64,000 nt of DNA from Mycoplana rhizolycopersici. Its GTDB lineage: Bacteria > Pseudomonadota > Alphaproteobacteria > Rhizobiales > Rhizobiaceae. The notes under the pieces were generated by a model. It worked only from the letters and a program-made list of their open reading frames with translations, was not told the DNA's origin and made no database searches. The DNA lies in the NCBI RefSeq assembly GCF_013378445.1, contig NZ_JABXYK010000003.1, forward strand, positions 62,001 to 126,000. Direction: 5' to 3'. The translations under genes and the position numbers were made by a program. Positions 9,845 through 37,801 of the stretch are shown one piece after another (the first letter of the stretch is position 1; every line of letters begins with the position of its first letter).

Positions 9845-10507
9845 ATGGTGGCACGGGTCAGTACGGTGGCATTTCAGGGCATCGATGGCGTTCCCGTCGA
9901 TGTCCAGGTGATGGTGGCGCCCGGCAAGGTCGGCATGCAGATCGTCGGGCTTCCGGACAAGGCGGTGGCGGAAAGCCGCGAACGCGTTCAGGCTGCCCTT
10001 CATGCCTCCGGGCTGTCGCTGCCGGCCAAGCGCGTGACGGTCAATCTCGCACCCGCCGATCTGCCGAAGGAGGGGAGCCACTTCGATCTTCCTATCGCCT
10101 TGGGCCTGATGGCTGCGCTCGGCGCGATTCCTGCAGATGCCCTGGAGGGTTATGTCGTGATCGGCGAGCTCAATCTCGACGGCACGATTGCCGCCATTGC
10201 CGGAGCGCTGCCCGCCGCGATCGGCGCCAACGCCCTCGGCAAGGGATTGATATGCCCCGCCGACAGCGGCGCGGAAGCGGCGTGGGCGGGAAGCCAGCTC
10301 GACATCCTCGCGCCGCGAAGCCTGATCGCGCTGGCGAACCATTTTCGCGGCACCCAGGTGCTGTCGCGTCCCGAACCCGCAATTCGCGCAGCGCCCGCGA
10401 ACCTGCCTGACCTCGCCGATATCAAGGGCCAGGAAAGCGCCAAGCGCGCGCTGGAGGTCGCCGCCGCTGGCGGGCATAATCTGCTGACATTGTGCTACAT
10501 TAATTAG
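9845..10507 (+). pseudogene. comM: comM (Mg-chelatase-like AAA+ ATPase), 5' part, interrupted by the integrated element
   Basis: From ATG 9845 the sequence MVARVSTVAFQGIDGVPVDV is the Lon-protease-like N-terminal domain of the ComM/YifB family. The family helps integrate transforming DNA by branch migration. VGLPDKAVAESRERVQAAL, VNLAPADLPKEGSHFDLPIA and LADIKGQESAKRALEVAAAG follow. Chromosomal sequence ends at AAT CTG CTG A within the Walker A approach (GGHNLL), after which the frame enters the mobile element and stops at 10507, leaving about 212 native residues plus a short TLCYIN tail. The remainder is at 37796-38691. Together they would give about 510 residues, the usual ComM length. The AAA+ motor is lost from this part. 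Confidence 0.93.
10482..10505 (+). other. attL: left attachment site of the element
   Basis: The core TGCTGA (10482-10487) is followed by C and then the 17-bp arm ATTGTGCTACATTAATT (10489-10505). That arm is the exact reverse complement of the arm at 37778-37794. Bases left of the core are comM. Confidence 0.88.
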
Positions 10508-10739
10508 CGGGTCTTCGGTTGGCTAACGGGCCGAAATTGGCTTACTCAACACCCGCTCGTTATTTCCCATGCCTATAGGCATCACAAGTTCCGTAGCTTC
10601 GATGGATTTATTCAAAAGAAGCTTTCCTCAAGTTGCGCACGAAGCTGTCAACAGTCTTGTTTGTATTTGCGGTCGTTGAGATATTCATCGTAGGTTGCAA
10701 CGGTGATTCCGGACTAAGAAAACATGGGCTGGGGGGATA

Positions 10740-13061
10740 ATGAGCGACAGACCTTTCAAGGCTTTTTTTGCCTACCCAGGCCAACCAGACGAATTGGTGT
10801 CGACAATCAACGCCGCGGCCAAACGCATAAATGCGACCGGGAAGTCGTCGGTACTAACCTGGCCGGAGATGGGTGTTTTCGGAACGGTGATTCCTGACGA
10901 TGTCAGGAACAATATTGCCGATGCCCAAGCCCTCGTGTTCGACGTCACGCGACCGAACCTTAACGTCTACTACGAGGCCGGATACGCCATCGGCCTTGGA
11001 AAGGCGATTGCTCCCGTAGTGAATAGGTCTTTCGACAACGCGCTTGCCGATATCCAGCGCGACGGCATGTTCGACAACATTGGATACAGGTCCTACGAAA
11101 ACAGCGAAGAACTCGCCGATATCCTTTCTGGATTGCCAGAGACAAAGCTACTCGATCTTTACAGCAGGGAACTCGATAACCAGCAGCCTCTGTTTGTGCT
11201 CGACACCTTGAGGAAGACAGACTTCCGCAACTGGGTCGTTTCGGCGATCAAAAGTTCGAAGGTCCACTACCGCAGTTTCGATCCCGTCGAGGTCCCGAGG
11301 CTTTCTGCGGTCACGGTGCTATCACAGGTCTCTGCCTCGTCCGGTATTATCCTACCGATACTTGGCGACCACATAGACGACGCCAAAAGACATAATCTGA
11401 GAGCCGCCTTCGTAGCTGGCATCAGTCACGGATTGGGCCGACAGACCTTGCTGGTCGCATTGAAGAGGTTCGACGCAGCACCTGCGGATTATCGGGACCT
11501 CATCACGCCCGTTGTCGACGAGAAGTCTATCATGCAGGTCGTAGGGACGTTCTCGCAACAGGCTCTTCTCGCAGGCCAGTCGATAAAGAGCAGACCCGGG
11601 AAGGGTACCAAAACTGTCCTCCAATCGCTCACCTTAGGGTCCTCAGCCGCAGAAAACGAATTCAGGACTCTGTCGAGCTATTTCGTAGAAACGTCAGAAT
11701 TTCTGCGGACGTTGCGGGGGGAAGTGAACGTGGTAGCGGGAAGGAAGGGGTCCGGCAAGACCGCGATCTTCTTCCAGTCGCGTGACGTGTTCCGAGCTGA
11801 GAAAGGGGCGATCGTTACCGACCTGAAGCCCGAGTCTCATCAATTAAGCCTCTTCAGAGAGGAACTGCTCAAGATTGTCGATGTAGGGGCGTTCGATCAC
11901 TCGCTCGCGGCATTCTGGTATTTCCTCCTCTTGTCGGAAGTACTTCTGACGATGAAGCGGAACCTCGAATATCGATCCCGCGTCGACAGCCGAGCACTGG
12001 AGACTCTCCGGGAGATCGACCGGGTCCTCGATTCATATCAGATCAACGAGAGCGGAGATTTCACTACCCGTATCAACCGTCTCAGCCGTTTCGTAGTCCA
12101 GGAAATAGATGCCGCCAAGAAGAGGCGGCAGTCTATATCGCCCGAATTCCTCACGAATATCATCTTTCGGGGTGGGATTAACGACCTCAAGAAGATGGTT
12201 TTCCAGTATGTCGGTCACCACGACAGGGTGACGTTGCTTTTTGACAACATCGACAAGGGCTGGCCCGCCAACGGTGTCGACGAGTTCGACGTGCGTCTGG
12301 TGCGCCTGCTTGTTGAGGCGCTCGACAAGATCAAGCGCGATTTCCTCGCTGCAAAGCGCGAGTTCCTCTCAGTCGTTTTCCTCCGAAACGACATTTACGA
12401 GATGCTCGTGGAAGGCACGCCTGACCGAGGAAAGGCGGGCCAAGTGCGGATCGACTGGACCGACCGCGCAAAGCTCAAACAAGTGATATTCAAGCGACTC
12501 CAGGCTTCGGCGGGAGCGACGGCGACCAACTTTAACGAACTCTGGCAAAGATTTTTTCCGGAATCCGTTGCCAATCAGGACTCGTTCGAGTTCTTCGTTG
12601 ACCATTGCCTGATGCGGCCGCGGTTCCTCATCAACATCATTGAAAACGCGATCTCGAACGCCGTGAACCGAGGGCATTCCAAGGTGGCGGTTGAAGACTG
12701 CATCGACGCAGTCAGGCAGCATTCGCTCTATTTGGTCGACGACTTCGGTTACGAGATACGGGATGTTTCGGGGTTGTCCGCCGAATTGCTTTATTCGCTC
12801 GTGGGGGCTGAAAAAGTGATGGCGAGATCGGACTTTCTCGCCAAGTTCATTGAGTTCGGCCTTTCGGCGGAAGAGGCCGACAAAGCATTTTCACTCATGT
12901 TGTGGTACGGGGTTCTTGGCATCCGAAACAAGGACGGCAAGGATCGCTTTATCTACGATTTCGAATACAGCATGAAGCGACTGACCGCGGAGGCCAAGGT
13001 TCTCGGGGAGACTGCTCGGTATGTCACCAACGAAGCCCTACATGTGGCGCTTGCCACTTAG
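10740..13061 (+). CDS. TIR/deoxyribosyltransferase-like plus P-loop ATPase protein (Sll1717-like), candidate defence protein
   Basis: This 773-residue protein has three visible parts. Residues 1-140 look like a Rossmann-type TIR/nucleoside-deoxyribosyltransferase-like domain, with ADAQALVFDVTRPNLNVYYE and YEAGYAIGLGK. A second similar module lies around 165-290 (IILPILGDHIDDAKRHNL, AAFVAGISHGLGRQTLLVAL). From about 310 a P-loop ATPase begins with GRKGSGKT (334-341) and a Walker B-like RVTLLFDNIDKGW near 496-508; this half resembles the P-loop ATPase family named after cyanobacterial Sll1717. No transmembrane segment is obvious. It is the first gene inside the left end of the element. A sensor-ATPase defence role is inferred from architecture and neighbours only. 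Confidence 0.65.
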   Translation: MSDRPFKAFFAYPGQPDELVSTINAAAKRINATGKSSVLTWPEMGVFGTVIPDDVRNNIADAQALVFDVTRPNLNVYYEAGYAIGLGKAIAPVVNRSFDNALADIQRDGMFDNIGYRSYENSEELADILSGLPETKLLDLYSRELDNQQPLFVLDTLRKTDFRNWVVSAIKSSKVHYRSFDPVEVPRLSAVTVLSQVSASSGIILPILGDHIDDAKRHNLRAAFVAGISHGLGRQTLLVALKRFDAAPADYRDLITPVVDEKSIMQVVGTFSQQALLAGQSIKSRPGKGTKTVLQSLTLGSSAAENEFRTLSSYFVETSEFLRTLRGEVNVVAGRKGSGKTAIFFQSRDVFRAEKGAIVTDLKPESHQLSLFREELLKIVDVGAFDHSLAAFWYFLLLSEVLLTMKRNLEYRSRVDSRALETLREIDRVLDSYQINESGDFTTRINRLSRFVVQEIDAAKKRRQSISPEFLTNIIFRGGINDLKKMVFQYVGHHDRVTLLFDNIDKGWPANGVDEFDVRLVRLLVEALDKIKRDFLAAKREFLSVVFLRNDIYEMLVEGTPDRGKAGQVRIDWTDRAKLKQVIFKRLQASAGATATNFNELWQRFFPESVANQDSFEFFVDHCLMRPRFLINIIENAISNAVNRGHSKVAVEDCIDAVRQHSLYLVDDFGYEIRDVSGLSAELLYSLVGAEKVMARSDFLAKFIEFGLSAEEADKAFSLMLWYGVLGIRNKDGKDRFIYDFEYSMKRLTAEAKVLGETARYVTNEALHVALAT

Positions 13062-13363
13062 GTGTTGATCTGCGCTGAGAACCAGCTCTTGGTTGAGAAG
13101 TGGTGACTCCCACCTGCCTCATCAAAAAGCCCAGAAAACAAGGGATTTTCAACCGCAAATTTGGTGTCGTGTGTGCCAATCTTGTGTGCGCATGTTTTGC
13201 ATGCAGATGCGCGAAAAGTCAACGACATGTGGGCGGACACCCTGGCGACCCCATCGGCATTGACGTACGCTAGTGCATTGGTGTAGGTAGTGCATGTACT
13301 ACGGAAACCGTAGCTCCATCGTTAACTTCGTTGACGGTGAATTTCAGAGAAGGAGCTTCTCTT
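13062..13363. other. Intergenic region with possible promoter
   Basis: No gene is seen in these 302 bp. TTGACG at 13259-13264 could be a -35 element for the small gene that follows; no convincing -10 is assigned. Repeated AGTGCAT words occur near 13273 and 13288. Confidence 0.35.
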
Positions 13364-13732
13364 ATGACCACTGCATTTAATGTTTCAGATGCCGTAGCAG
13401 CGCTTGAAAGCCAACGCACAGACCTTATCGACTACATCAATCGCACAACCGATGCCCTAATTGGCAAGATTGTCGGAGCAGATGCGGGGCCTGTCATTGG
13501 CGTTAGAATCCCGACGCTTGAACAGGCCCGGGACGCGCGCAACAAAGAAGGGGCAAACCTTACCGCCCGCGGCACAGAAATCCTTTACCGTCTGTTCGAC
13601 GACGGAGCTGGATATAACCGTGCTTCCAAGGCTCTTGGTATCACTCAGACTGCTGCTCGCAACAGAAAGGGTCTGTGGGAAAAGCAGGGTGGTTTAAACC
13701 GCAAGCGCGAGCGCCTTGATATCGACGATTAG
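13364..13732 (+). CDS. Small protein with helix-turn-helix-like C-terminus, unrecognised family
   Basis: The ATG at 13364 follows GAGAAGGAGCTTCTCTT, a strong ribosome binding site, and gives 122 residues (MTTAFNVSDAVAALESQRTD). The N-terminal half is helical, with a coiled-coil-like stretch ESQRTDLIDYINRTTDALIG. The C-terminal half (GTEILYRLFDDGAGYNRASK, then ALGITQTAARNRKGLWEKQG) looks like a resolvase/sigma-type helix-turn-helix, ending in a basic KRERLDIDD tail. It may bind DNA, for example as a regulator for the element. It stands alone between the ATPase gene and the convergent DUF3644 gene. Confidence 0.55.
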   Translation: MTTAFNVSDAVAALESQRTDLIDYINRTTDALIGKIVGADAGPVIGVRIPTLEQARDARNKEGANLTARGTEILYRLFDDGAGYNRASKALGITQTAARNRKGLWEKQGGLNRKRERLDIDD

Positions 13733-13788
13733 GCTATTCCCAGCATCGTAGCAGAGCCTCCGGGAGACCTTGGGGGCTCTAATCCATA

Positions 13789-14835
13789 TCAGCGCGGACG
13801 ATCCGCCCACAGTTGATCCATGTCTATCTGATGAAGCGCTTCCTTCATTCTGGTGACCGCATTGTCGCTGAAGCATCGGATTTTCTGGGCACCGAACTCG
13901 AACAGGTGACTGCAACTGGCATCGTTATCGATCCCCAAGTGCTGACGGAGGACTTTGGAGCGAGGGGGGCTTAACCCCACTTTCACAGCCAACGGGTGAG
14001 CCTGCAGATGAAACTTCCTTCTTAGATCAACTTCACGCACCGCGGCTGCCGCGGCCGGGTCGTCCCCGCCAATGTATTGGACCGGCGCACCCTGTTTTTT
14101 CGTGAAGTGGACGGTCAGATTGAGTCCTTCCCCCTGCAAATTAGTGCCCACGGTCGCTAGGCGAGGAAAAACCGCAGAGAAATCTGCATCTCCCCGCATA
14201 GCCTTCTCGATCCGATCGATGTCCCTTTCCGATATCTCGACTTCGTCGGTGACGATTGCCTCCATAGCCAGCATGGTTCGGATGCGGGCGCGGGCTTCGT
14301 CGCGCGCCCGTCTCCCTGGCTTGAGCAACTCGTTCACATAATTAAATTCGCGGTCGACGAGGAATTCAAAATCGCCAGGCGGAAGAGTGGAGATTGGTAG
14401 AACACGGGGCGGGATATGTGATCGGAGATCGCTTTCCAGCATACGTTGCAGATAGGCATCGTAAGCGGTGATCAGTGCCCGCGTTTGGAGGTAGAGCAAA
14501 TCCTCGGAAACGAAGACATACCAATGCTGTGCGGCATCCCGGAGCGCGTCAATCGCACGCATGATCCCCGCCTCGTCTGCGGAAAGTTGATGATGGGCAA
14601 CACAAAGGCCAAGACATCGTTCAAAGCCGATCGACTTGCCCGTCCCTTTGTCAAAGACCTTCACTTTTCGCTGTGAAAGCACCGCCTTGAGCAACATTTC
14701 GCAAGCATGCTGAAGGTTCATCAGCACCATCGTGATACGACCGTCGTCGTCGTAGCTGTTAAAGGCGTTCATTGCTGTTTTCAGCGAGCTAATGGACTTC
14801 GCCTTCAACGTTCGAGCATCACGAACCAGCTTCAA
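13789..14835 (-). CDS. DUF3644 domain protein (HEPN-like), candidate defence-associated
   Basis: This 348-residue protein has the N-terminal DUF3644 region: LKTAMNAFNSYDDDGRITM, NLQHACEMLLKAVLSQRKVK, and ALRDAAQHWYVFVSEDLLYL. The helical bundle with a conserved acidic/His pattern resembles HEPN-type domains, many of which are ribonucleases or toxins. The function of DUF3644 proteins is not established, but they recur in restriction and defence islands. The middle (about 190-240) is charged and helical, and the end (KIRCFSDNAVTRMKEALHQI) may bind nucleic acid. A 20-bp palindrome lies about 98 bp upstream of the start. The gene follows the GHKL-ATPase operon on the same strand after a 126-bp gap, so it may have its own promoter. 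Confidence 0.65.
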   Translation of the reverse strand: MKLVRDARTLKAKSISSLKTAMNAFNSYDDDGRITMVLMNLQHACEMLLKAVLSQRKVKVFDKGTGKSIGFERCLGLCVAHHQLSADEAGIMRAIDALRDAAQHWYVFVSEDLLYLQTRALITAYDAYLQRMLESDLRSHIPPRVLPISTLPPGDFEFLVDREFNYVNELLKPGRRARDEARARIRTMLAMEAIVTDEVEISERDIDRIEKAMRGDADFSAVFPRLATVGTNLQGEGLNLTVHFTKKQGAPVQYIGGDDPAAAAAVREVDLRRKFHLQAHPLAVKVGLSPPRSKVLRQHLGIDNDASCSHLFEFGAQKIRCFSDNAVTRMKEALHQIDMDQLWADRPR

Positions 14836-14932
14836 GATAGCTCCTAACCAACCTTATCCGTGCAACTTTTAGTTTGAGCATGCTACGTCAACGCGTGTTT
14901 GGCCGACAAGTTGTAGAGATAGCCCGATTTCC

Positions 14933-14952
14933 ATCATGTACTTGTACATGAT
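14933..14952. repeat. Dispersed palindrome copy 1 (ATCATGTAC-TT-GTACATGAT)
   Basis: The arms are perfect 9-bp inverted repeats around a TT centre, upstream of the DUF3644 gene. It shares its ATGTAC-NN-GTACAT core and a following GTTYT with two other copies in the element. A protein-binding operator or partition-type site is possible. Confidence 0.6.
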
Positions 14953-14961
14953 GTTCTACCG

Positions 14962-15687
14962 TCAGAGCGGCGCGCTTTCGGAAGCTTTCAAACGGAAGCG
15001 ATCGAACTCTTTCGGAAGCTTTTCGAGAAGCTGATCAGGTGACAGCGCGAACAGGTCCCATGTCACGTCGAGCTGCTTGCGCACCTGTGCAAGGCGTCGC
15101 GATGAGCCTGCTCCCTTGCCGCCAGCCCCCCGGCGCAACTTCATTTTGCCAGGTTCAAGATAAAGCAAGCGGGCAACTCGCTGGAACGATTCATGGAACA
15201 TATCCTGCTGGCTTGTAAGCTGCTCACGCAACTCGCCTGGCACTGAAGGACTACCTATAAGCAGGTGCTCGGCAGCATCTCCGAAAGATGACTTCAGGAG
15301 TACAGGCATACGGATCAGATGTCGCTGACCTTTCTGGTAGTCTTCAGGTTCGCTCGGAAACCACCTCCACACCTCGCCCAATTTCCGGTGTCCGTTTTTC
15401 TGCTCCGGGTACACTACGTCGCGGCATACAAAAGAGAGCCATCCCCAGACCCCCTTGCGGCCAAGCAGGGCCTTGATATTTACGCTGCCTATCGAACCCA
15501 GTATGGCAGTAGCCATCTCGTCGGCTGAAGCCCAGTCGGAGACAGTGAACGCCGTGGTTCCCGTGATCTTCCGGGCAATAGCATCATTGGTCAGGTCGAT
15601 TGCTTCCTCTTCCAGCTCGCCGTCAAACGCCTGTCTGAAAGCCTCGAGTCCAGCTTCGGTAAATTCGTAGAGCCCAGTGAACTTCAT
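14962..15687 (-). CDS. Uncharacterised protein, last gene of the GHKL-ATPase operon
   Basis: This 241-residue soluble protein was not recognised. The start MKFTGLYEFTEAGLEAFRQA follows AAGGAGACGTTGC, a strong ribosome binding site. Its ATGA overlap with the upstream gene indicates coupling. Features that can be seen are an acidic helical N-terminus (FDGELEEEAIDLTNDAIARK), a central aromatic/basic block (GVWGWLSFVCRDVVYPEQKN, RHLIRMPVLL) and a C-terminal block (PGKMKLRRGAGGKGAGSSRR, DVTWDLFALSPDQLLEKLPK) with basic residues that could contact nucleic acid. No catalytic motif is evident. It forms a conserved-looking unit with the two genes before it. Confidence 0.6.
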   Translation of the reverse strand: MKFTGLYEFTEAGLEAFRQAFDGELEEEAIDLTNDAIARKITGTTAFTVSDWASADEMATAILGSIGSVNIKALLGRKGVWGWLSFVCRDVVYPEQKNGHRKLGEVWRWFPSEPEDYQKGQRHLIRMPVLLKSSFGDAAEHLLIGSPSVPGELREQLTSQQDMFHESFQRVARLLYLEPGKMKLRRGAGGKGAGSSRRLAQVRKQLDVTWDLFALSPDQLLEKLPKEFDRFRLKASESAPL

Positions 15688-16445
15688 GCAACGTCTCCTT
15701 GGCCGAATTGATCGACGATGCGATCCGAGAGCTTATGCCGCTGGCAGAACGTATCGATCAGGCCATCGATCCACTCTCTCCGGTCACGGCTTTCTGACTG
15801 CTGGGGTCTGCTATTTCCTGGCATCAAACCGTCTGCCCAGCGTATCCAGTCATTCATCCAGTCCGTTTCCTCCGGATTTGGGTGCGAAAGGATGTCGTCG
15901 AAGACCTGATAAATGATCGCAGGCATGATCGTGCCGACGAAAGTGGGGTCACTCTTTGCCCAGGACCTCGGGTCAGGGATACGATTGTCGACATAGATAA
16001 CAGGGTGCGAATCTTCCTTGATGATCAGCTTCCAAGTCCGTGGTGCAATCTTCGCGGGAAGGAAATTCAGAAGCCCCCTTACACCTCCAGTCTGCTCTGG
16101 GTTGTCCGAGTTCAGTCGCCATGACGGGGAGCTACCTAGCAAGATGCCAAGGCGATCTGCATCTGCGTTCGCTATCCGGAGCTGGCAACTCGGATCGATG
16201 TATTCCTGGTTCGCAACTTCGACGGCAGTTTTCGGATTGCCAAGGGTACCGAAGTCTACCAGTTCCATCTGCTTGGTTTCGATCAGTTTGATCGTAAGCC
16301 GTGCGTTTGCCGGGAAGCCTTTTACTGCTTTCGGATCGACGATCGTCATGGTCAGGACTTTTTTTCCGCCGACCTCGCGCATCGCAACGTTTACACAACT
16401 TCGCGGGAGCTGCCGCCGACCTGTCAGCCTAATCGTTCTGCGCAT
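15684..16445 (-). CDS. Uncharacterised protein, third gene of the GHKL-ATPase operon
   Basis: This 253-residue protein has no recognised domain. It starts MRRTIRLTGRRQLPRSCVNV, overlaps the end of the ATPase gene by 17 bp, and overlaps the next gene by 4 bp (ATGA). The N-terminal half alternates short beta-like strands (KKVLTMTIVDPKAV, ARLTIKLIETKQMELVDFG). The C-terminal half is helical and tryptophan-rich (PEETDWMNDWIRWADGLMPG, REWIDGLIDTFCQRHKLSDR). There is no signal peptide or transmembrane segment. Overlapping gene ends on both sides suggest it acts with the ATPase, perhaps as a complex subunit. Confidence 0.6.
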   Translation of the reverse strand: MRRTIRLTGRRQLPRSCVNVAMREVGGKKVLTMTIVDPKAVKGFPANARLTIKLIETKQMELVDFGTLGNPKTAVEVANQEYIDPSCQLRIANADADRLGILLGSSPSWRLNSDNPEQTGGVRGLLNFLPAKIAPRTWKLIIKEDSHPVIYVDNRIPDPRSWAKSDPTFVGTIMPAIIYQVFDDILSHPNPEETDWMNDWIRWADGLMPGNSRPQQSESRDRREWIDGLIDTFCQRHKLSDRIVDQFGQGDVA

Positions 16446-18261
16446 TCTTCCAGACCTTTATGTGCGTATCGAGTTCACGTAATACGTCGAAGCCTGTGAC
16501 CTCGACCGCAAAGGCCGGCCCGCAGTTGCGTGCCGTCAGCTTGTTGTTCGAAAAGTTCGCATCACAATCCGCGATTTGAGGACTAAGGTTCTCCAGCGCA
16601 AAATCGTAGATGCTCCAAGCTGGTTTTCTTGTCCCGTCGGCATAAGCCATCGTCACGGATACATTGACCGGCCAGTCTCCGTAAGAAGGATTTGCAGCCA
16701 CTCGAAAGCCGTCTGGTAACGTCTCCATCACAATAGGCGATATTTTGGGAAGTGGAGGAGGCACAGGTGGTGCGGGGCTGACATCGGCCTTGGCACCCTT
16801 AGACTTCTTCTTTTCGGAACTGTCGTCTGGCAACGCAAAAAACGCATCGAAGACATCGATTTCGGGCTGCGTAATATCTGGCGTCAGGAGCGCACGAAGT
16901 TCGGTTGGAAGTCCTTTGATGAACCGCTTCAGGAGGATCGGCAGATGGTAGCCATTCTTCTCAAGTTTTGCCCTGACTTCTTTCGATTCCAGCAGGTCGA
17001 GGTGGGCCTTTCCTTCGCAGAGGTTGAGGAAGGTGGCGAGATTTTCGTCGTCGACAAGCAGGACCAGATCGAGTTCGCCCGGCATAGAAGATTTGACCTC
17101 GGGCAAGCTCATGCCCTCCCGGAAAAACCTGTCGATCGGGAGCTGGTCATCGGGGGTCTTCGCCAGCACCGCTCGAAGCGAGACAGGAAGTGTGACATCA
17201 TTCTTTTTAAGGCTGAAGGACAGTTTCAGCGCGATCTTCTTACCAGCAGCGCAAGCCTCCTGCATGGCCTTGATCTGGTCGGTGTCACGAAGAGCTGCCA
17301 GACCTGATTTGGAATCAACCTTCAGCTCGCTGGTGGCCGACATGCCGATCGCAATAAGATCAAGATATCGCCTGACGTCGTCGCGGATCGAACGCGTATG
17401 AAATTTCTCCGCGACCGAGACACCCACTTCTTCGATCGAGCCTTTGTCGAGCGTCACATCGTCCACCTGGACCACCAGCGAGCCGTTTAGGATAGCCGGC
17501 GCGAAGTGCTCGACAGCCGAGGCCAAGATACCCTCTGGCGTCAGGTCGGCATGAGGATAGGGAATAATGAGTGCAAGACCGCTATTTGTGGGGGCCGAAT
17601 TGTACCCGTTTAGAGAGAAGGCGGCGGCGAGCCCGTTGTTGAAATCACCGGCAACATGGAGCCCGAAAACATCGTCTTTTTCATTGTCCGCCAGATAGGC
17701 ATGGGTTGTTCGCACGACACCTTCGGTGCGCATCGTGCGTAGCAAGGTCATGCCGCATGCGGCGGTGACGCCATCGTCGACGCGCCTGGTGAGAGCAAGG
17801 ACAGTTTGCATTCGGGACGCGATAAGAAATGTGACGCGTCCGATGCCTCGCCCGCCACGCTTAGCTCCATCCTTGTTCGAGACGCCGAAATTCAGCCAGT
17901 AATTCCAGAAATTGCCAAGGCGGTCATCCAGGCTGCCGTCCAGGCCGCGAGTGTTGAAGTCTTCAATCGTCACCCAGTTGATCTGCCCGTTCTGCCAGTC
18001 TTCGACTGGAGGGAAGTCAGCGATTTCCCGGAACTTGACCGCTCCTTCCAAAAAGGCACGCCTTGAGGATAAAGCCGCCTGGTGAAAGCCGAATCTGATG
18101 ATCGCCGGGCGACCGGCATCCAGACGGGCATCAAGCGTATTCTGGATCGCTTCACGGACAAATGTTTCCGTATACGGATAGTCCGCCCGATCGAACATTT
18201 CGCTATCAGTATTCTGCGAACTCGGCGTGGGCCCAACGCGAGGCCATATCCACTTCCACAT
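16429..18261 (-). CDS. GHKL (Hsp90/MutL/histidine-kinase-type) ATPase of a candidate defence operon
   Basis: The ATG at 18261 follows GAGGTGAGGCGT and gives 610 residues. The GHKL ATP-binding motifs are visible: an N-box VREAIQNTLDA (E37, N41, D44), a divergent metal/adenine loop TIEDFNTRGLDG (98-109), and a glycine loop RGGRGIGRVTFLIASRMQTV (about 135-155). After the ATPase region comes a long segment of mixed secondary structure, a proline-rich linker (APPVPPPLPK near 510) and a C-terminal beta-rich domain (WPVNVSVTMAYADGTRKPAW) ending in LDTHIKVWKNAQND. Proteins with this ATPase fold couple ATP binding to clamp closure. It is the largest member of a four-gene reverse-strand operon and is not one I can place in a named system. 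Confidence 0.7.
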   Translation of the reverse strand: MWKWIWPRVGPTPSSQNTDSEMFDRADYPYTETFVREAIQNTLDARLDAGRPAIIRFGFHQAALSSRRAFLEGAVKFREIADFPPVEDWQNGQINWVTIEDFNTRGLDGSLDDRLGNFWNYWLNFGVSNKDGAKRGGRGIGRVTFLIASRMQTVLALTRRVDDGVTAACGMTLLRTMRTEGVVRTTHAYLADNEKDDVFGLHVAGDFNNGLAAAFSLNGYNSAPTNSGLALIIPYPHADLTPEGILASAVEHFAPAILNGSLVVQVDDVTLDKGSIEEVGVSVAEKFHTRSIRDDVRRYLDLIAIGMSATSELKVDSKSGLAALRDTDQIKAMQEACAAGKKIALKLSFSLKKNDVTLPVSLRAVLAKTPDDQLPIDRFFREGMSLPEVKSSMPGELDLVLLVDDENLATFLNLCEGKAHLDLLESKEVRAKLEKNGYHLPILLKRFIKGLPTELRALLTPDITQPEIDVFDAFFALPDDSSEKKKSKGAKADVSPAPPVPPPLPKISPIVMETLPDGFRVAANPSYGDWPVNVSVTMAYADGTRKPAWSIYDFALENLSPQIADCDANFSNNKLTARNCGPAFAVEVTGFDVLRELDTHIKVWKNAQND

Positions 18262-18272
18262 ACGCCTCACCT

Positions 18273-20776: not shown

Positions 20777-21447
20777 TGGACGTCGGCGAAGAGATTTTTT
20801 GGCAGAACGCCCGTGCGGTCACACGCGATATCGGAATGTTCCACCTTGATCCCGCACACGGGGCGGCGGTGGACGTCGTTCGGTGGTGCTTACGACACCG
20901 AGGCCGTCCGACACATCACCGGCAGACCTTTTTAGAGGCGGAGTCTCCACCGCTTCTCGCCTACCTCGAAACGCTGGCGAGGTCAGGGGACGCGGCAGGC
21001 TGGCGGACGCTGGAGCAACGTATCCGGCATCATGCGGAACTTCTCCACGAGACGGACATGCATCCTTGCGCCCGTCCCTGGCTGGCCGCGATTTGGCATT
21101 GCCTGCCCGAGCTTGCGGGGATCGGCCAGACGATCCTTGACGGCGCGGACGAACCCAAGAGCGCGGCGGATTTCGAAGTCGCGCCAGCGCCGACCGATAC
21201 CGACACGAAGGCCGGCGACGGCGGCGGCGACGAGGGCAGCGCGGGCAAGGCCGGATCGGCGGGGACGGCGGCGAAGCCGAAACCCTCATCGCCGCTGGCA
21301 TTACCTGTCGTCCCTGTGGTGCTGACCCAGGCCGAGATGAAGGCGTTGGCTCCCGACGACGACGCCAGCGATGCCAACGCGAAGAACGATGCCACGCCTG
21401 ACGGCCCAGACGGGTCAACGGGTCCCAAACCAGGAAGCCCGAAATGA
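20773..21447 (+). CDS. Hypothetical protein of the transfer operon with acidic low-complexity tail
   Basis: The gene encodes 224 residues starting MMDVGEEIFWQNARAVTRDI. The first 120 residues are globular and histidine/tryptophan-rich (LRHRGRPTHHRQTFLE, WRTLEQRIRHHAELLHE). From about 135 the sequence becomes Gly/Ala/Asp/Lys-rich low complexity (KAGDGGGDEGSAGKAGSAGT), then ends in an acidic/proline tail. It overlaps the relaxase by ATGA and the DotA/TraY-like gene by ATGA. It could bridge the relaxosome and membrane partner; there is no direct evidence of function. Confidence 0.55.
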   Translation: MMDVGEEIFWQNARAVTRDIGMFHLDPAHGAAVDVVRWCLRHRGRPTHHRQTFLEAESPPLLAYLETLARSGDAAGWRTLEQRIRHHAELLHETDMHPCARPWLAAIWHCLPELAGIGQTILDGADEPKSAADFEVAPAPTDTDTKAGDGGGDEGSAGKAGSAGTAAKPKPSSPLALPVVPVVLTQAEMKALAPDDDASDANAKNDATPDGPDGSTGPKPGSPK

Positions 21448-28518: not shown

Positions 28519-28520
28519 TT

Positions 28521-29716: not shown

Positions 29717-30943
29717 TCAAGCTATTCGGACGTCCCCGATAAATTCTTCCAGCGTCATCAGATGCGGGCGCACGGTATCGGGATACGAGTCGTGCAGGCC
29801 GGCGGGAACGACGAGCCGGACGCCCGCTTCCGTCATCTCGTTGAACTGGGCCTGAGACACACCTTCCTGGAGCGTCAGCAAATGCTTTGTCGGAATGCGG
29901 TCGGCTTCGTTGATGATCTGACGCCAGCGGTCCTTACAGGTAGTCTTCGCGGCGAGCATGCGCAGCCTGTTGGCGGGGAAGGCCCCGTTCTCGTAGGCTT
30001 CGACGTTGGGAAACAAAAAGTCAGGTCGCTTGTTGCCCTCGATAACCGGGTTGTGGACGAAATTGGCACCAGGCGACAATCCGTCTTCCTCGAAAATCGC
30101 ACTGGCATGGTATTCAAGCGATTTGCCCGCCCTTGATTTCCGGCTCTGCAGGATGGTGTTGGCGAGGCCGAGAAATCCGTCGATCGTATGGAAGCCTTCG
30201 CTTATCTTGGGCATCCACGTCGCCTGCTCGACGCTCTTGAAAATCTCGAACTCGCATGCACGACGTCGCATCAGCCGGACATCGGCATTCGTCCCTGTTG
30301 CCGGCCTGAGCGAAATAGTCTTTTCGATGATCTGACGCCCGGTCGGGAACGTCACCAGCCACTCAGGAGGCATCTCGGCCGGACCCAGCCAGCAAGAAGT
30401 TCGCGCTGCTGGGGTAATGGTGAACAGGTCAGCCTGTGGCTCCGAGATTCCCGGACGCCAAATGACTGGAACCTTGGGCTCAACTGGCCCAAGTCTTTCC
30501 TCGATCAGGTCGGCCTGGATGCCATCATCGCATAGCCAGACATGGCACGATGCATCGGCAGCGTCCGTCTCGGGCGCGAAAGCGAAGACCACAAGCGCGC
30601 CGGTACTGTCTGCATCCAGAAGTGCGGACTGGCCGCCGCCGAAATTGGTCAGTCTGGTCTCGTTACGGGTCTTTCCATGGAGCCTGTTATTGTACCAGAC
30701 CGCTCTTATGGTCCGGACATCAGGATGGGAGTCGACATAGAGTTCGAAGCGGGCATCCGGATTCAATTCCTGAGGACGATTCAGGCTGGGGATGATTTCA
30801 AAAAGAAAATCTTTCGGGATATAAGGGCCGGCCTGATGCGAGCCGTTCGCCAGCGTGTCGTTACCCGACAGGCGCTTCGCGTACCAAACGAAACCTGGTC
30901 GACCGTACTCGTCCATCCAGTCCGTCAGGTCACTGATCGCCAT
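29717..30943 (-). CDS. EcoRII-like type II restriction endonuclease
   Basis: This 408-residue enzyme has the two-domain layout of EcoRII. An N-terminal effector-binding part (WYAKRLSGNDTLANGSHQAG, PYIPKDFLFEI) is followed by a catalytic PD-(D/E)XK domain (FEIFKSVEQATWMPKISEGF, ANTILQSRKSRAGKSLEYHA, NKRPDFLFPNVEAYE, LAAKTTCKDRWRQIINEADR). EcoRII cuts at CCWGG (W = A or T) and needs two sites; the same target is likely but not proven. Its start overlaps the end of vsr by 14 bp, so methyltransferase, Vsr and nuclease form one operon in the order M-vsr-R, giving the new host protection before cutting. Confidence 0.85.
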   Translation of the reverse strand: MAISDLTDWMDEYGRPGFVWYAKRLSGNDTLANGSHQAGPYIPKDFLFEIIPSLNRPQELNPDARFELYVDSHPDVRTIRAVWYNNRLHGKTRNETRLTNFGGGQSALLDADSTGALVVFAFAPETDAADASCHVWLCDDGIQADLIEERLGPVEPKVPVIWRPGISEPQADLFTITPAARTSCWLGPAEMPPEWLVTFPTGRQIIEKTISLRPATGTNADVRLMRRRACEFEIFKSVEQATWMPKISEGFHTIDGFLGLANTILQSRKSRAGKSLEYHASAIFEEDGLSPGANFVHNPVIEGNKRPDFLFPNVEAYENGAFPANRLRMLAAKTTCKDRWRQIINEADRIPTKHLLTLQEGVSQAQFNEMTEAGVRLVVPAGLHDSYPDTVRPHLMTLEEFIGDVRIA

Positions 30944-31397
30944 CCGTCGTCCCCTCTATATCCGCAGCAAACCTGCCCGATTCGAGCCAGTTCGCCACCT
31001 TGTCGATAACCTCGACGATCGGCAACCTCGTCCTGCCTTTCAGCGCGCATTCCCAAACCGTCAGGTGCCGCCACCCCAGTCCGTCCAGCGCCTTCCTGAC
31101 CTCGACGTCCCGTTGCCGATTGCGCGCGATCTTTTCCGTCCAGAAATCGACCCGTGAAGACGGGAGCCTGAACAGGTGGCAAGTGTGTCCATGCCAGAAG
31201 CAGCCGTCCACAAACACAACGGCTCTAAGCCGCGGGAACACCAGGTCGGGCTTGCCTGGCAGGCGCTTGTCATGGAGACGATATCGCCATCCACGCGCGA
31301 ACAACGCCTTGCGGATCAGGATTTCAGGTTTCGTATTCTTTCCCCGGATGCCCGACATCATCAGGCTACGCTTCTCCGGGGTGACGATATCCGCCAT
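30930..31397 (-). CDS. vsr: Very short patch repair endonuclease Vsr
   Basis: This 155-residue protein carries all Vsr hallmarks: MADIVTPEKRSLMMSGIRGK at the N-terminus, NTKPEILIRKALFARGWRYR, the catalytic GKPDLVFPRL with its Asp, and VDGCFWHGHTCHLFRLPSSR holding the zinc-binding Cys/His. Vsr nicks beside T:G mismatches that arise when 5-methylcytosine deaminates in the Dcm-type target, limiting mutation caused by the partner methyltransferase. Its start overlaps the methyltransferase stop (TGATG), and its end overlaps the restriction gene. Confidence 0.93.
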   Translation of the reverse strand: MADIVTPEKRSLMMSGIRGKNTKPEILIRKALFARGWRYRLHDKRLPGKPDLVFPRLRAVVFVDGCFWHGHTCHLFRLPSSRVDFWTEKIARNRQRDVEVRKALDGLGWRHLTVWECALKGRTRLPIVEVIDKVANWLESGRFAADIEGTTDGDQ

Positions 31398-32635
31398 CAG
31401 GCCCGCTTTCTGACGACCTCTTTGCGGGCGTCGAGAATGTAGGGCTTCATGAGCTGCGCAACCGCCTCGACAGCAGGAACCGCGACGGAATTCCCGAACT
31501 GGCGGTAGGCCTGTGTGTCCGATACGGGGATTATGAAGTCGCTATGTCCTGGAAGGTCAAAGCCCATAAGCCGTGCGCACTCCCGCGGCGTCAGCCGGCG
31601 CGGGTTCCGTCCGTCACCTCTGTCGATGAGGATTTCCGATCCGTCCTTGTGGTAGCGAGCCGAGAGCGTGCGGGCGACCCCTTCCGCGCCGAACAAACCG
31701 AAACCGAAACCGTTGCCTTTTGCCTTATGCTTGTCGGCATAGGCCTGAAGGTAGGCCCAGAGCTTGTCGCTCAGTGTGTACTTGTCCGATACCCGGCCGA
31801 TATTGCCATCCGTAAACGGCTTCTCGGGGGCTTCCTCTCCGTTCTCCGGATGCAGGATGGTCTTGAGGGTTGGTCCCTTCAAAACGTCAGGCACAACAAG
31901 GTCTTCGAAATCGAAACCACACTCGTCCCTGAAACCGACAATGAAAATGCGTTCGCGGTGCTGCGGCAACCAGGACTTGGCATCCAGTATCCTGCACTGG
32001 ATCGTATAGCCAAGCTCGTTTTCCAGCACGTTCCGGATGATCTTGAAGGTCTGCCCCTTATCGTGGTTGACTAGGTTCTTCACGTTTTCGAGCAGGAACG
32101 CCTTGGGACGATGGAAGGCAAGGATGCGCTGGATATCGAAGAACAGCGTTCCCTGCGTCTCGCAGGCGAAGCCATGGGGCCGGTTCAAGGCGTTCTTCTT
32201 GGAGACGCCCGCTATCGAGAACGGCTGACACGGGAAACCGGCCAACAGGACGTCATGAGGCGGGATGTCTTCCTCACGCAGCTTGGTAATGTCCGGAAAG
32301 ATGTCGTGGTTATCCTCCGGGTAATTTGCCCGATACGTCTCCTGCGAATGCTTGTCACGCTCACACGTGAAAATGCACTTTCCGCCGATCGCATCGAAAC
32401 CGCGACGAAGTCCGCCGATCCCTGCGAACAGATCGATGAAGGTGAACGAATGTTCGGGCGTCGCCTCGGAGCATCGTTCATGCCGAACGGCCTCAAGGGA
32501 GTCCAGCACCACTTTGCGGGGAACGTTCTTACCCGACTCCCATCGGTAAACCTGACGCTCTGTGTAACCCAGTCGCTCGGCCGTTTCAGGGATACCCAGG
32601 CCAGCCTTCTGACGGAGGGCGGAAAAATCACTCAT
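31397..32635 (-). CDS. EcoRII/Dcm-like DNA (cytosine-5) methyltransferase with N-terminal HTH
   Basis: This 412-residue protein begins with a helix-turn-helix (IPETAERLGYTERQVYRWES), followed by the C5-methyltransferase domain: motif I TFIDLFAGIGGLRRGFDAIG, IV with catalytic Cys LAGFPCQPFSIAGV, VI FLLENVKNL, VIII WLPQHRERIFIVGF and IX/X RLTPRECARLMGF with YRQFGNSVAVPAV. The resemblance is to M.EcoRII and Dcm, which methylate the inner C of CCWGG. The HTH suggests that the enzyme represses its own operon, as shown for several M.EcoRII-type proteins. It is the first gene of the M-vsr-R operon, with a 114-bp gap to the gene before it. Confidence 0.92.
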   Translation of the reverse strand: MSDFSALRQKAGLGIPETAERLGYTERQVYRWESGKNVPRKVVLDSLEAVRHERCSEATPEHSFTFIDLFAGIGGLRRGFDAIGGKCIFTCERDKHSQETYRANYPEDNHDIFPDITKLREEDIPPHDVLLAGFPCQPFSIAGVSKKNALNRPHGFACETQGTLFFDIQRILAFHRPKAFLLENVKNLVNHDKGQTFKIIRNVLENELGYTIQCRILDAKSWLPQHRERIFIVGFRDECGFDFEDLVVPDVLKGPTLKTILHPENGEEAPEKPFTDGNIGRVSDKYTLSDKLWAYLQAYADKHKAKGNGFGFGLFGAEGVARTLSARYHKDGSEILIDRGDGRNPRRLTPRECARLMGFDLPGHSDFIIPVSDTQAYRQFGNSVAVPAVEAVAQLMKPYILDARKEVVRKRA

Positions 32636-32749
32636 GAATCACCTCGGCATTCTCTGGGAGTCTTTCTGACATTACGGCAGGAAGTAATCCATAGAACATA
32701 ACAAGAACATCCGGATGTCAACTGATTATTATTGCAGCTCTCGTCGACC

Positions 32750-33914: not shown

Positions 33915-35672
33915 TCAAACCGTTTGGACGACTACCGATCCATCTTTCCCACCATACACCAGCTGGCGTCCACGCTGGCGGCTCTCGCGTATGGCTTGCT
34001 TTCGTGCTTCCTTTTGCTTCCAGGCCTTCTTTCGATCCTCCATTGCCTTTCTCATGAATTCCGGCATGGGACGACGTTTGACGCCCAGCTGTTCCGCCTT
34101 CGGGTCTTCCTTGCTGTCTACCAGGATTGAAGACCCCGTTCCGACGGCCACGGAGGACACTGATTTCGAAGAACGGGGTTCCCGATTCTGCAGTACGGAA
34201 TCGCCGAGTACTGGAGTCCTATCTTTGACCTCGGAGGGCGTGGTGAAGGGCGGGTTGTGAAGGTGTGGTGAATCCAGACGGCAAGTCTTTGATTTTGTTG
34301 AATCGGAAGTTGCAACGGACTTCAGGGAGCAGACACCCGAATTCGACCGTCCGACGAACTTCTCGTACGCAGCCTTCATCGTCCTGACGAGGTTCTTCAC
34401 CTGTCCGGCGGGAACGATAAAGCTGTCGTGGATCGGCAGGCACGGGACACCCTTGCGGACCGTCATCTCACGGAGAACGTACTCGGCCATCTTCGCATCG
34501 AGGTTCTGCAACTCCAGTCCGATGCCCGAATGGAAGTACTTCTCGACCGGAGCATGGCGGGCCTTCATCACGGCGATCAGCTTGGCGGCGAGTTTCCTGT
34601 CCAGTCCCTTCTTTTCGAGGTAGTTCGCGACGGCTCCCTTGGCAGCCAGATAGCCCTCGGCGTTGACGATGATGAAGAACGCCCGCTTCGCCACGTTCCT
34701 CGGAAAGCCTTCGATGATGTAGGGATCGCCGACGAGTTTCTTCTTCGCCCAGGCATAGATGATCCTGGCGTGCAGGTAGTCGTAGTCAACCTCCTCGGTG
34801 CGCTCGCCGTCAATCAGGATGGTATGCCTGTGGCGGCCGCGCATGGTCTGCCAGAACCCGGCGTAGAAACGCCCGCCCGATGTCCAGACACCCTGGTTGA
34901 AGACGCGGTGCATGGCGGTCGCCGAGGTCGAGAACACGCGGTCCTCGATACGGGTCCACTGTCCGTCGGTGACCACGCCTTCGCCCTCGACGGTGAAGCG
35001 GGTCTTCTCGAGGACGTCGTTGACCTTCTCGAGAACGTATCGGCTGTCCCGTGTCTGGGGCGTGTCCTTGTAAGCCAGCATGTCGCCGTTCTTGTCGCGC
35101 AGGATGATGGTTTCCCCGCGCTTGCGGTTCAGCTTCGGCATCTCGAAAGCGACGAGCATCGGGTTCGGCAGATAGGAGGACTGGATGCCCCGCTTGCCCG
35201 CCGGCCGCCTGTCGTGTTCGATCAGGATGCCCTTGGCGACCAGAGCGTCCACCGCCTTGATGACGGTGCTGCGTCGGAAGGCGGGACCCGTATACCGTGC
35301 GCGGTTCTGCCAGTAGGCTTCGCGCCTCGAATAGGAGATACGGCGGCCGGGATAGAGATGGGCCGAGATGATGGCGTCGGCCGTCAGAGCGTCCACCACT
35401 TCCTGCTCGGAGGCGGTCTCCATCACCGGGACATCGAGGACCTTCTTGAGTTCCTCGGAAGGCATGCGCCAGGACATGCCGACGGGACGATGCCTCGTCA
35501 GGTCCGTGCGCCATTCGCCGTCAAGGGAGAATTCGGGTAGGACGCAGGCCCCTGCGCCGACCTCACACTGATTTCCAGAGCCTACGTGCTCGTCGGATTT
35601 GTCAACATTTTTGATTGTAGGGTCAGGCGGTAGTGTCGAGCGGGTCGGGATATGTCCCGACCTCGGGCTCAC
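33915..35672 (-). CDS. Protein with family-A-polymerase/T7-RNAP-like palm motifs, possible replication protein
   Basis: The frame from a GTG at 35672 gives 585 residues; the Met at 35477 is a possible later start. Residues about 85-180 look like a winged-helix region (RRSTVIKAVDALVAKGILIE). From 290 onward three motifs match the polymerase A/T7 RNA polymerase palm in order and spacing: motif A VDYDYLHAR (D296, R303, as in DYSQIELR), motif B RNVAKRAFFIIVNAEGY (R325, K329) and motif C PIHDSFIVP (H415, D416, close to T7 RNA polymerase IHDSF). D296 and D416 would be the two metal-binding aspartates. Residues 441-585 are a charged, disordered, basic tail. It is next to the integrase and may replicate the excised element, or prime or regulate it. 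No 3'-5' exonuclease is present. Confidence 0.55.
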   Translation of the reverse strand: MSPRSGHIPTRSTLPPDPTIKNVDKSDEHVGSGNQCEVGAGACVLPEFSLDGEWRTDLTRHRPVGMSWRMPSEELKKVLDVPVMETASEQEVVDALTADAIISAHLYPGRRISYSRREAYWQNRARYTGPAFRRSTVIKAVDALVAKGILIEHDRRPAGKRGIQSSYLPNPMLVAFEMPKLNRKRGETIILRDKNGDMLAYKDTPQTRDSRYVLEKVNDVLEKTRFTVEGEGVVTDGQWTRIEDRVFSTSATAMHRVFNQGVWTSGGRFYAGFWQTMRGRHRHTILIDGERTEEVDYDYLHARIIYAWAKKKLVGDPYIIEGFPRNVAKRAFFIIVNAEGYLAAKGAVANYLEKKGLDRKLAAKLIAVMKARHAPVEKYFHSGIGLELQNLDAKMAEYVLREMTVRKGVPCLPIHDSFIVPAGQVKNLVRTMKAAYEKFVGRSNSGVCSLKSVATSDSTKSKTCRLDSPHLHNPPFTTPSEVKDRTPVLGDSVLQNREPRSSKSVSSVAVGTGSSILVDSKEDPKAEQLGVKRRPMPEFMRKAMEDRKKAWKQKEARKQAIRESRQRGRQLVYGGKDGSVVVQTV

Positions 35673-35734
35673 CGATTACGGTGGGGGGTCTTTACAGCAA
35701 TTTCGCCAACAGCGATGATCATCTGGCAACTCCG

Positions 35735-35780
35735 AAAAAACACCACTGAGGGTTCCCGCCCTGCGACGTGGTGTTTTTTT
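35735..35780. terminator. Bidirectional rho-independent terminator
   Basis: AAAAAACACCAC (35735-35746) pairs with GTGGTGTTTTTTT (35768-35780) around a 21-nt loop. It has an A run on one side and a T run on the other, so it can terminate in both directions. On the reverse strand it would end integrase transcripts before the polymerase-like gene. Confidence 0.75.
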
Positions 35781-35849
35781 ATGGTCATGCGAGGCAGAGT
35801 CCGGGTCAAGCGCCGAAAATACATTCCGCATGCGAAACGAATTGATGGT

Positions 35850-35871
35850 CGTCATGTACAGGTACATGACG
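35850..35871. repeat. Dispersed palindrome copy 3
   Basis: Perfect 10-bp arms CGTCATGTAC and GTACATGACG surround an AG centre. It is identical to copy 2 on the opposite strand over the whole 22 bp and is followed by GTTCTC as in that copy. It lies about 180 bp upstream of the polymerase-like gene and 110 bp past the end of the integrase gene. Confidence 0.65.
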
Positions 35872-35981
35872 TTCTCCACAATCCCCCACCCCGCCCGAGG
35901 GCGGTGCTGCGGCCCTCCCCCCGGGAAGGGCCTCACGCCCCTCGCGGGGCGACTGGGTTTCATCGCCCTCGCGCCGGCGCT

Positions 35982-37751
35982 TCAGGCGATGCCTTGCTTA
36001 TTTTTCAGTCGTTCAAAAGCATTCGGGGAGGGAAACCCCTTGATCCCATCCGCAGTCATCATCTGGCCGCCCTTCCCTTGGTAGAAGGCGTCGCGAGCAT
36101 CGTCAGTTGGATTCTTCTTCAGCAGGAAAAGATAACGAGGAGGAGGCGCGTCAGCGGCTCGAGGCTGAAGATCAAGCTGAAAGGCGAAAGCGCCCTCTGT
36201 TGGGGACTCCACCCGCCACACTTTCGTGTCGAGTGGCAACACCATGTATGCTCCCCGGATGGGGTGGCATTCAATTAGTGGCACGATCCGACGGATAAGA
36301 GATGAAAGCCGGATTCGGCTTTCCAGCCGCTCCTCGCCTTCGAGCTGCATGAAGTCCGTCGACAACTGAAGAACTTCCGCAAGGCGGACGGAATCTCCAG
36401 GGTCGCTTTGGCTTATCGCCAGCTCCGCCTCCGCAGCCTTCAGCTCAGCTGTCTTGGCCTTAACCTCCTCCGCGATTTCGAGGAAGCGTGCTATCGCCTG
36501 CTGGTCTTCGGATTCTGCCAGCCTCATCAGGACCTTGTTTCTGCGATTGAGGTCATCCAGTTCAGCCCGGATCGCATCAACTATGTCGCCATTGTCAGTT
36601 TCTTGTTGGTACAAGCCTTTGAAAGACTGCGTCTTGAACGAGGTCAAGCATAGCAGAACCGCTTCCTCAAGTTCGTCCACTCGCCAAGCTCGTCCGTTGT
36701 CGCAACCTACGTTTCTCCGGTTGGATGAACAGGCGAGATAGACCCCACCTTTTGGCGGTTTGCCTTTGTTCACCACCCACATTGCGCTGCCGCACGCTGA
36801 ACATTTTGCTAGGCCATGGAGAATGTGGGCCCCTTTGTCACCGCGGCGACCTCCAGTATGCTGTCGTCGGGTTTCAAGAGATGCCTGAGCGCGCCAGAAT
36901 ACGTCATCGGGAATAATCCGAGGATAGTAGTCTTTGATCGGGTCTCCCTCTGGCTTTCTGTTACGCGCTTTATGTGTGCCGGTGTGAGGTTGGTACTCGC
37001 CCATCACTGCGCGGTTCTGCACGATCTTCGCGATACTCGAAGTCTGCCACCCAGTGGAAGGCTTCTTCCGCTTCTCGCCAGCTTTGAACGGCAGCTTTCC
37101 TTCGCCGTTTAACCGGCATACGATCTCTCGTCGGCCGAATCCTTCGATCGTCTCCCGAAAAATACGGCGCACGATTTCGACCCTATCTGGGCGCTCAACG
37201 AACTTCCCGTCGCGGACTTCCAGCCATTCGGGGCATCGTGGCGTAATCGGCTTTCCTTCTGCACGTGCAGCCGCCTTCTTCTGCCGCCATGCCTCTCCGA
37301 CGCGCTCGCTCTTCACGCGGCTTTCATCATGCGCGCGTGCCATGACCGCAAGTGAAATGACCAGTGGCGTCCAGTCTTGCCGGAGTCGAGTGGCGGAATA
37401 TTCCTGACCATCGCTAAGGGTGACGACGACGACGCCGGCTTGAATAAGGGCGAACAGTTGGGTCGCGGCATCAATCACGGTTTCGCGCGATAGGCGGTCC
37501 AGGCTCTCCACGATGAGATATGAATCCCGTTCAATCTTCCCGTCCTCGACCATCTGAAGAAACGATCGAAGGGCACCATTTGTCCGGTTCGCTCCGTGAT
37601 AGGCGCTGATTCCGAGGTCGCGATGGGAGTCGTCCAAGTCGAGGCCGCGCCCGTCTGCCCAAGCCTCCGCCTTCGCGACTTGGCGACGCAGGGAGTCCCC
37701 TTGCGCTTGTTCCGGCGTAGAGAATCGAATGTATGAATAAGCTTTCGTCAT
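35982..37751 (-). CDS. Large serine recombinase (integrase of the element)
   Basis: The ATG at 37751 follows GGAACGCAGC and gives 589 residues. The catalytic resolvase domain starts TKAYSYIRFSTPEQAQGDSL with the nucleophile Ser11 in YIRFS, and continues with LIVESLDRLSRETVIDAATQ. The recombinase domain (EIVRRIFRETIEGFGRREIV, WQTSSIAKIVQNRAVMGEYQ) and a zinc ribbon (AKCSACGSAMW...YLACSSNRRNVGCDN) follow, then a coiled coil (EVKAKTAELKAAEAELAISQ) typical of large serine integrases. These enzymes cut both DNA strands at a central dinucleotide and need no DNA homology beyond it. The gene reads inward from the right end of the element, with attR immediately upstream; excision would need a directionality factor not identified here. 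Confidence 0.92.
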   Translation of the reverse strand: MTKAYSYIRFSTPEQAQGDSLRRQVAKAEAWADGRGLDLDDSHRDLGISAYHGANRTNGALRSFLQMVEDGKIERDSYLIVESLDRLSRETVIDAATQLFALIQAGVVVVTLSDGQEYSATRLRQDWTPLVISLAVMARAHDESRVKSERVGEAWRQKKAAARAEGKPITPRCPEWLEVRDGKFVERPDRVEIVRRIFRETIEGFGRREIVCRLNGEGKLPFKAGEKRKKPSTGWQTSSIAKIVQNRAVMGEYQPHTGTHKARNRKPEGDPIKDYYPRIIPDDVFWRAQASLETRRQHTGGRRGDKGAHILHGLAKCSACGSAMWVVNKGKPPKGGVYLACSSNRRNVGCDNGRAWRVDELEEAVLLCLTSFKTQSFKGLYQQETDNGDIVDAIRAELDDLNRRNKVLMRLAESEDQQAIARFLEIAEEVKAKTAELKAAEAELAISQSDPGDSVRLAEVLQLSTDFMQLEGEERLESRIRLSSLIRRIVPLIECHPIRGAYMVLPLDTKVWRVESPTEGAFAFQLDLQPRAADAPPPRYLFLLKKNPTDDARDAFYQGKGGQMMTADGIKGFPSPNAFERLKNKQGIA

Positions 37752-37777
37752 GCTGCGTTCCATATCTGACATGAGGA

Positions 37778-37801
37778 AATTAATGTAGCACAATTTGCTG
37801 A
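37778..37801 (+). other. attR: right attachment site of the element
   Basis: The arm AATTAATGTAGCACAAT (37778-37794) is followed by T and the core TGCTGA (37796-37801), after which comM resumes as TGGTCGGCC. The arm is the exact reverse complement of that at 10489-10505. The arm lies 26 bp upstream of the integrase start, so attR also contains the integrase promoter region. Confidence 0.88.

Follow-up and report, generated by a model that had tools for sequence, protein, structure and literature searches.

The window analysed here is a 64-kb stretch of the Mycoplana rhizolycopersici genome (contig NZ_JABXYK010000003.1, positions 62,001 to 126,000), in which comM is interrupted by an element of 27,314 bp (10485-37798). 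The element was very probably inserted by a large serine integrase, with the crossover at bases 1-2 of the Leu230 codon, 5'-CT-3', upstream of the Walker A codons. Most likely it is an integrative mobilizable element that carries a defence cargo. In the proposed mechanism, the integrase would recombine a palindromic attP of about 42 bp with an attB inside comM. Crossover at the first two bases of the Leu230 codon would then generate attL and attR, and comM would be left in two pieces, an N-terminal half and a second half retaining the AAA+ part. We infer that the integrase is active, and that excision, permitted by a directionality factor, would restore both attB and the comM frame. Transfer would proceed through a conjugation pore borrowed from a helper.

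Attachment sites and the interrupted comM gene

Both ends of the element carry a copy of TGCTGA, the attL core at 10482-10487 and the attR core at 37796-37801. The predicted CT crossover lies at 10484-10485 and 37798-37799, respectively. On the element side, the left copy is followed, after one C (10488), by the 17-bp right arm of attP, ATTGTGCTACATTAATT (10489-10505, plus strand). The right copy is preceded, with one T between (37795), by the left arm of attP (37778-37794, minus strand), which is the exact reverse complement. The repeat finder returned the two arms as a 17-nt pair with 100% complementarity (I6), and each arm is a single copy within the window. When the element ends are joined, the junction reads arm-TTGCTGAC-arm, with CT at the centre. 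When the flanks are joined, a single open ComM frame of 526 amino acids runs through GGHNLLMVGPPGSGKS. The hexamer by itself is uninformative, with 20 plus-strand and 23 minus-strand copies in the window; the inference is carried by the arms, the restored frame and the integrase, and not by the hexamer. An initial annotation of this DNA had described the shared hexamer, the one-base spacers and the perfect arms, and had proposed a candidate attP centred on CT and an attB within comM that restores its frame. The first three match the window base for base, and the two proposed junctions were confirmed in the sequence.

The 5' half of comM (9845-10484, plus strand) starts with MVARVST and ends at the crossover; residues 1-231 of the window-derived query matched at 100%. 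The 3' half (37799-38691, plus strand), identified from the joined frame and the comM match, holds the AAA+ part with an intact Walker A motif. The GC content in 2-kb bins is about 53-63% within the element, compared with 60-67% outside. No tRNA or tmRNA genes were found in the 64-kb window.

To examine the empty site, the joined flanks were compared with the comM genes of six congeneric relatives and one from the same family, none at strain level. All seven are collinear across the join, at 81-93% identity over alignments of 1447-1831 bp, and none shows a gap closer than 100 bp to the junction. As these genes run straight through the join, attB is no artefact of joining. The initial annotation had named a different junction in relatives with intact comM as the observation that would speak against it, and this comparison came out in its favour. 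The closest relative (L002, 92.7% DNA identity) has TT instead of CT at the step. Another of the seven (L008, genome G006) has a comM that is broken elsewhere, near codon 50.

The symmetry of attP extends about 21 bp on each side of its axis, giving a site of about 42 bp. It is a near-palindrome in the range of about 40-50 bp expected for large serine integrases, around an asymmetric central dinucleotide that attL and attR share in the window. The extent of symmetry also fits the 48-50-bp attP with a central dinucleotide that the cited passages describe for studied serine integrases (PMC3783163, PMC3642061).

It was also considered whether a Tn6022/Tsy-type transposon or a tyrosine recombinase made the insertion, with the serine integrase as a passenger. 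The Tn7-like Tn6022 and Tsy do insert in comM, but according to the cited passages they target the Walker B region (PMC10293859), not the codons before Walker A, where the present insertion lies at codon 230. Moreover, the joined flanks are collinear with the comM of relatives, with no duplication beyond the shared core, and attP arms palindromic about this codon are common to other serine-integrase insertions as well. The chance of such an origin is considered very small, with the search for transposase genes limited to the family scans.

Comparative position of the predicted crossover

The window by itself places the crossover only within the six shared bases, where CT is indistinguishable from the other dinucleotides of TGCTGA. 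Comparative data single out CT as the supported position. Both junctions were collected for 31 insertions that share one comM codon, Leu230 ahead of Walker A, and were aligned on codon 230. The first 23 comprise the window, five of 61 genomes, twelve further genomes of the order and five from a contig scan. Eight were added later from phylum and class surveys, in two batches of four. The close relatives G337 and G377 were both retained. Loci dropped before the count were those with comM broken at a different place (around codon 47-50 in G006 and G934, at further positions in G358 and G607), with frameshift-like breaks (G018, G040), contig breaks (G044, G045), a truncated 3' half (G662) or partial comM (G532, G475), with an intact comM and additional fragments (G035), with an uninterrupted comM elsewhere (G055), or without any comM match (G435/L051). 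Each attP was scored over 52 symmetry axes, and attL/attR identity was scored at offsets from -12 to +12.

The attP palindrome has its unique best axis on bases 1-2 of codon 230 in 26/31 insertions. The attL and attR dinucleotides agree at the same two bases in 26/31, compared with 16/31 at the best other offset (permutation p 0.002 for the 31 insertions, with rows treated as independent). The shared dinucleotide is CT in 22 of the agreeing pairs, TT in three and AT in one, and base 2 agrees in 31/31. In the first 23 insertions, axis and dinucleotide each reached 20/23, with at most 13 at any other offset. The added batches gave 3/4 for the dinucleotide and 2/4 for the axis in batch one, and 3/4 and 4/4 in batch two. 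The initial annotation had inferred the CT crossover from the window, and it is now supported by two measures that both peak at these bases. Its six-base core stands as six shared bases, but the mechanistic core would be a 2-bp step, and conserved coding sequence accounts for part of the identity over all six.

Another dinucleotide within TGCTGA, used by the same integrase at the same site, is therefore highly unlikely as the crossover. At the neighbouring offsets, identity over the 31 insertions drops from 26 to 12 (-2 and -1), 8 (+1) and 5 (+2), and the palindrome, as given above, has its unique centre at offset 0 in 26/31. In G347 and G397, CT is the sole dinucleotide shared within codons 229-231, as read by eye.

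Several observations weigh against the proposed crossover and target. The attL and attR dinucleotides differ in 5/31 insertions (G431, G226, G008, G070, G1130), in each case by C versus T at base 1. These disagreements could be explained by later mutation or by a mismatch tolerated at integration. There is no unique best axis at offset 0 in 5/31: G347 is tied, G014 and G688 are off by 0.5, and G368 and G478 have their best axis elsewhere. The comM halves lie on different contigs in 5/31 (G008, G041, G277, G432, G478), and G478 has no integrase shown beside either half. G434, a metagenome-assembled genome (MAG), has short comM flanks and additionally contains a comM piece that is uninterrupted. 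The attB is barely symmetric, with its best axis at 0 in 6/23. Related integrases are also not always found at comM. In the phylum survey, comM was sought in 25 of the 28 genomes with an integrase match (G000, G251 and G601 were left out); a codon-230 break was present in 5/25, and a near-full single uninterrupted comM match in 16/25.

The confinement of the five mismatches to base 1, with base 2 spared, raises the possibility that a C/T difference at the first crossover base is tolerated by these integrases, so that one attP might serve both CTN and TTR leucine codons. Among 49 comM genes that are uninterrupted and readable at codon 230, 38 begin this codon with CT and 11 with TT. Over 27 pairs, attP agrees best with its own attB at second codon positions. 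The values for the left arm are 64/81, compared with 40/81 at position 1 and 39/81 at position 3; those for the right arm are 50/81, compared with 21/81 and 22/81. By eye, the inner attP motif TTGTG matches the comM His-Asn codons when these are read outward on the left side of attB.

The catalytic motif of the integrase lies 62-127 nt from the core in 21/23 insertions. In 16 of these 21 the integrase borders on the 3' half of comM, and in five on the 5' half. The side is scattered over the integrase tree, and the well-supported sisters G029 and G270 differ. This scatter fits the rule described for Bxb1, in which polarity is set by the dinucleotide alone according to the cited passages (PMC3642061).

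Two further comM arrangements were observed. At L068 (G006) and L201/L192 (G934), comM is broken around codon 47-50 next to a related serine integrase, which makes this a second recurrent site. At locus L067 (G035), an intact comM precedes additional comM fragments, and one of these ends in an attL with an arm almost like that of the window. These fragments are apparently the scar of an older insertion.

Integrase, cargo and predicted mobility of the element

The integrase gene (35982-37751, minus strand) encodes a protein of 589 amino acids with a Resolvase catalytic domain (Pfam, 1.7e-18), a Recombinase domain (3.9e-18) and a zinc-ribbon domain (Zn_ribbon_recom, 6.5e-12), the combination that defines large serine integrases. 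The Tyr-x-Arg-x-Ser motif and four Cys residues are invariant in 11 aligned integrases, including that of the window. The ATG at 37751 lies 26 bp inside the arm at the right end of the element, and a second in-frame ATG lies upstream at 37772. Both the domains and the first of these ATGs agree with the serine integrase and its start as given in the initial annotation.

Six relatives were identified in the contig scan, with best-segment identities of 76% (R. calliandrae), 70% (Rhizobium sp. C4), 63% (a Rhizobiales isolate), 60% (Ciceribacter lividus), 60% (a Sinorhizobium MAG) and 45% (a Syntrophaceae MAG). The order survey found an integrase match at E<=1e-60 in 15/397 genomes, and the phylum and class surveys found matches in 28/398 and 8/385, each count including the genome of the window. 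A comM part is also present at 14/15 of the order-survey loci. In 13/14 of them one end of the comM alignment falls at residues 226-232, and in G347 the alignment starts at 212. Matches to the integrase were present in 172 phage and 157 plasmid records, all below 60% identity and none covering 80% of the query; thus there is no excised copy to compare. None of five pattern matches for integrase relatives in viral contigs was confirmed.

The element also carries candidate mobility genes. A MobV-like relaxase candidate (19619-20776, plus strand; NCBIfam MobV, 8.5e-12) shares 57% identity over 261 amino acids with a Sinorhizobium plasmid recombination protein. A DotA/TraY family protein (21444-23417, plus strand; TIGR04346, 7.5e-54, above cut-off) is the sole such match found in the genome. 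Only DotA/TraY was recognised as a conjugation-pore part among the element open reading frames searched, which are a subset of the total. This family was matched in 8/8 genomes searched: once and above cut-off in seven, and as two partial matches below cut-off in G435. Distant DotA/TraY relatives were also seen on plasmids, many of them predicted to be non-mobilizable. On the one such plasmid inspected, of 33 kb from Klebsiella, the 42 features shown include no other named conjugation gene. Possibly, the TraY protein retargets the pore of a helper or evades its exclusion.

Two C5-cytosine methyltransferases are present in the element. One of them (24748-26154, minus strand; Pfam PF00145, 2.8e-42) was found by tblastn to be common to several related elements. 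The other belongs to a cargo segment with an EcoRII-type restriction endonuclease and Vsr (29717-32635, minus strand), assigned by family scans. The same scans indicated a candidate defence cargo at 10740-18270, consisting of a Sll1717-family ATPase, PDC-S19 and PDC-M33A-like proteins, with unassigned open reading frames between them. No phage structural family was found among the Pfam and NCBIfam matches of the searched element open reading frames; PHROGs was not searched. A near-palindrome, TCATGTAC-NN-GTACATGA, is operator-like and occurs in three copies, at 14934, 26139 and 35852, two of which sit in a 27-nt pair with 96% complementarity.

The element might instead be a dead remnant, with arms and integrase intact but no longer excising or moving. 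No excised form was seen: a degenerate pattern for the circular attP gave 0 matches in IMG/VR viral contigs. The MobV match is weak, at 45.6 bits below the curated cut-off of 100, and no directionality factor for excision was identified. In contrast, 17/17 arm bases match, the integrase frame is intact and its conserved residues are kept. A remnant is accordingly rated as rather unlikely, yet still a serious alternative to a mobilizable element that can excise.

A structured element, R1 (35875-35997, minus strand), overlaps the stop codon of the integrase and lies mostly in its 3' flank. It was identified by compensatory changes, found in 7/34 pairs (seven sequences), and by model matches. Folding of 35870-36000 (minus strand) gave a z of -2.66. 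The adjacent region 35680-35830 alone is not unusual (z -0.42), and the three-sequence alignment there is too thin for a claim. Rfam gave no match in 10400-37900 at gathering thresholds, and none in 35600-36010 at E<=1. The R1 model matched in 8/17 genomes, with no match in the six same-genus genomes of this search, nor in G041, G428 and G431. With stricter filters it matched in 3/297 order genomes, one of them new (G327). No R1 match was found in plasmids, and no match to the R1 pattern in viral contigs. A weak match in G029 (C9, E 3.7e-4) has a methyltransferase fragment beside it and no TraY match.

In all ten cases R1 comes just after a gene that lies on the same strand. This gene is the integrase in seven elements; in the other three (two loci in G368 and one in G327) it is an unrelated gene of about 680 amino acids. 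The two G368 copies of this unrelated gene, the only ones scanned, have no Pfam match. The G368 and G327 loci also hold TraY, a methyltransferase and a MobA/L-type relaxase. R1 was considered as the nic site of an origin of transfer (oriT); this is less likely, since the relaxases differ (MobV versus MobA/L) while R1 is kept.

Tentatively, the comM integrase might be one exchangeable module in a family of mobilizable elements that has gone unrecognised. The backbone of this family would combine a lone DotA/TraY and R1 with a relaxase of the MobV or MobA/L type and, in most cases, a Dcm-like methyltransferase; the evidence leaves this idea somewhat short of an even chance. The backbone is not uniform. 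In G431, TraY, MobV and the methyltransferase are present without a convincing R1. No methyltransferase was detected in G433 or in the partial stretches of G434 and L051, and no relaxase in the L051 stretch. The lone TraY/DotA gene and R1, both recurring in related elements, may be newer as findings than the insertion itself.

Comparison with known systems

These analyses provide an exact predicted attP/attB pair for an uncharacterised alphaproteobacterial serine integrase. Judged from the aligned junctions, related integrases split comM at the same two letters many times. Divergent integrases appear to converge, in either orientation, on the same step within one codon, next to a conserved ATPase motif, and such a conserved coding motif would be a target available in distant hosts. 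Loss of comM may weaken transformation of the host, given the role of ComM described in the cited passages (PMC10293859). The lone TraY/DotA gene and R1 suggest a mobilizable family about which little has been described, and whose structured element matches no Rfam family.

The comM target is already known; the exact crossover letters and the site layout are worked out here. A literature search of titles and abstract beginnings, with supplements outside its reach, found no paper with this codon-level crossover. Mg-chelatase/ATP-dependent-protease genes are the target of 12.4% of predicted site-specific large serine recombinases, and competence genes are enriched among the targets, as stated in the cited passages of Durrant et al. 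2022 (PMC10083194). The present integrase belongs to the same enzyme class and uses the same kind of target gene. Those passages are without a codon-level crossover or orientation switching, both of which are worked out here. In Wolbachia, the large serine recombinase sr1 of phage WO likewise splits a gene for magnesium chelatase, and parts of attP lie to either side, as described in the passages cited (PMC9203015, PMC5062602). However, WO is a phage, whereas the present island has a relaxase-like gene and lacks phage structural families among its searched reading frames. Like Tn6022 and Tsy as cited above, the island is a mobile element specialised on comM; those transposons differ in their recombination chemistry and in their Walker B anchor. 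Mobilizable islands of the SGI1 type reportedly encode a replacement conjugation-pore part, a TraG-type protein, together with a tyrosine integrase. The present element resembles them in having a lone conjugation-pore protein on what is probably a mobilizable element, but it combines DotA/TraY with a serine integrase.

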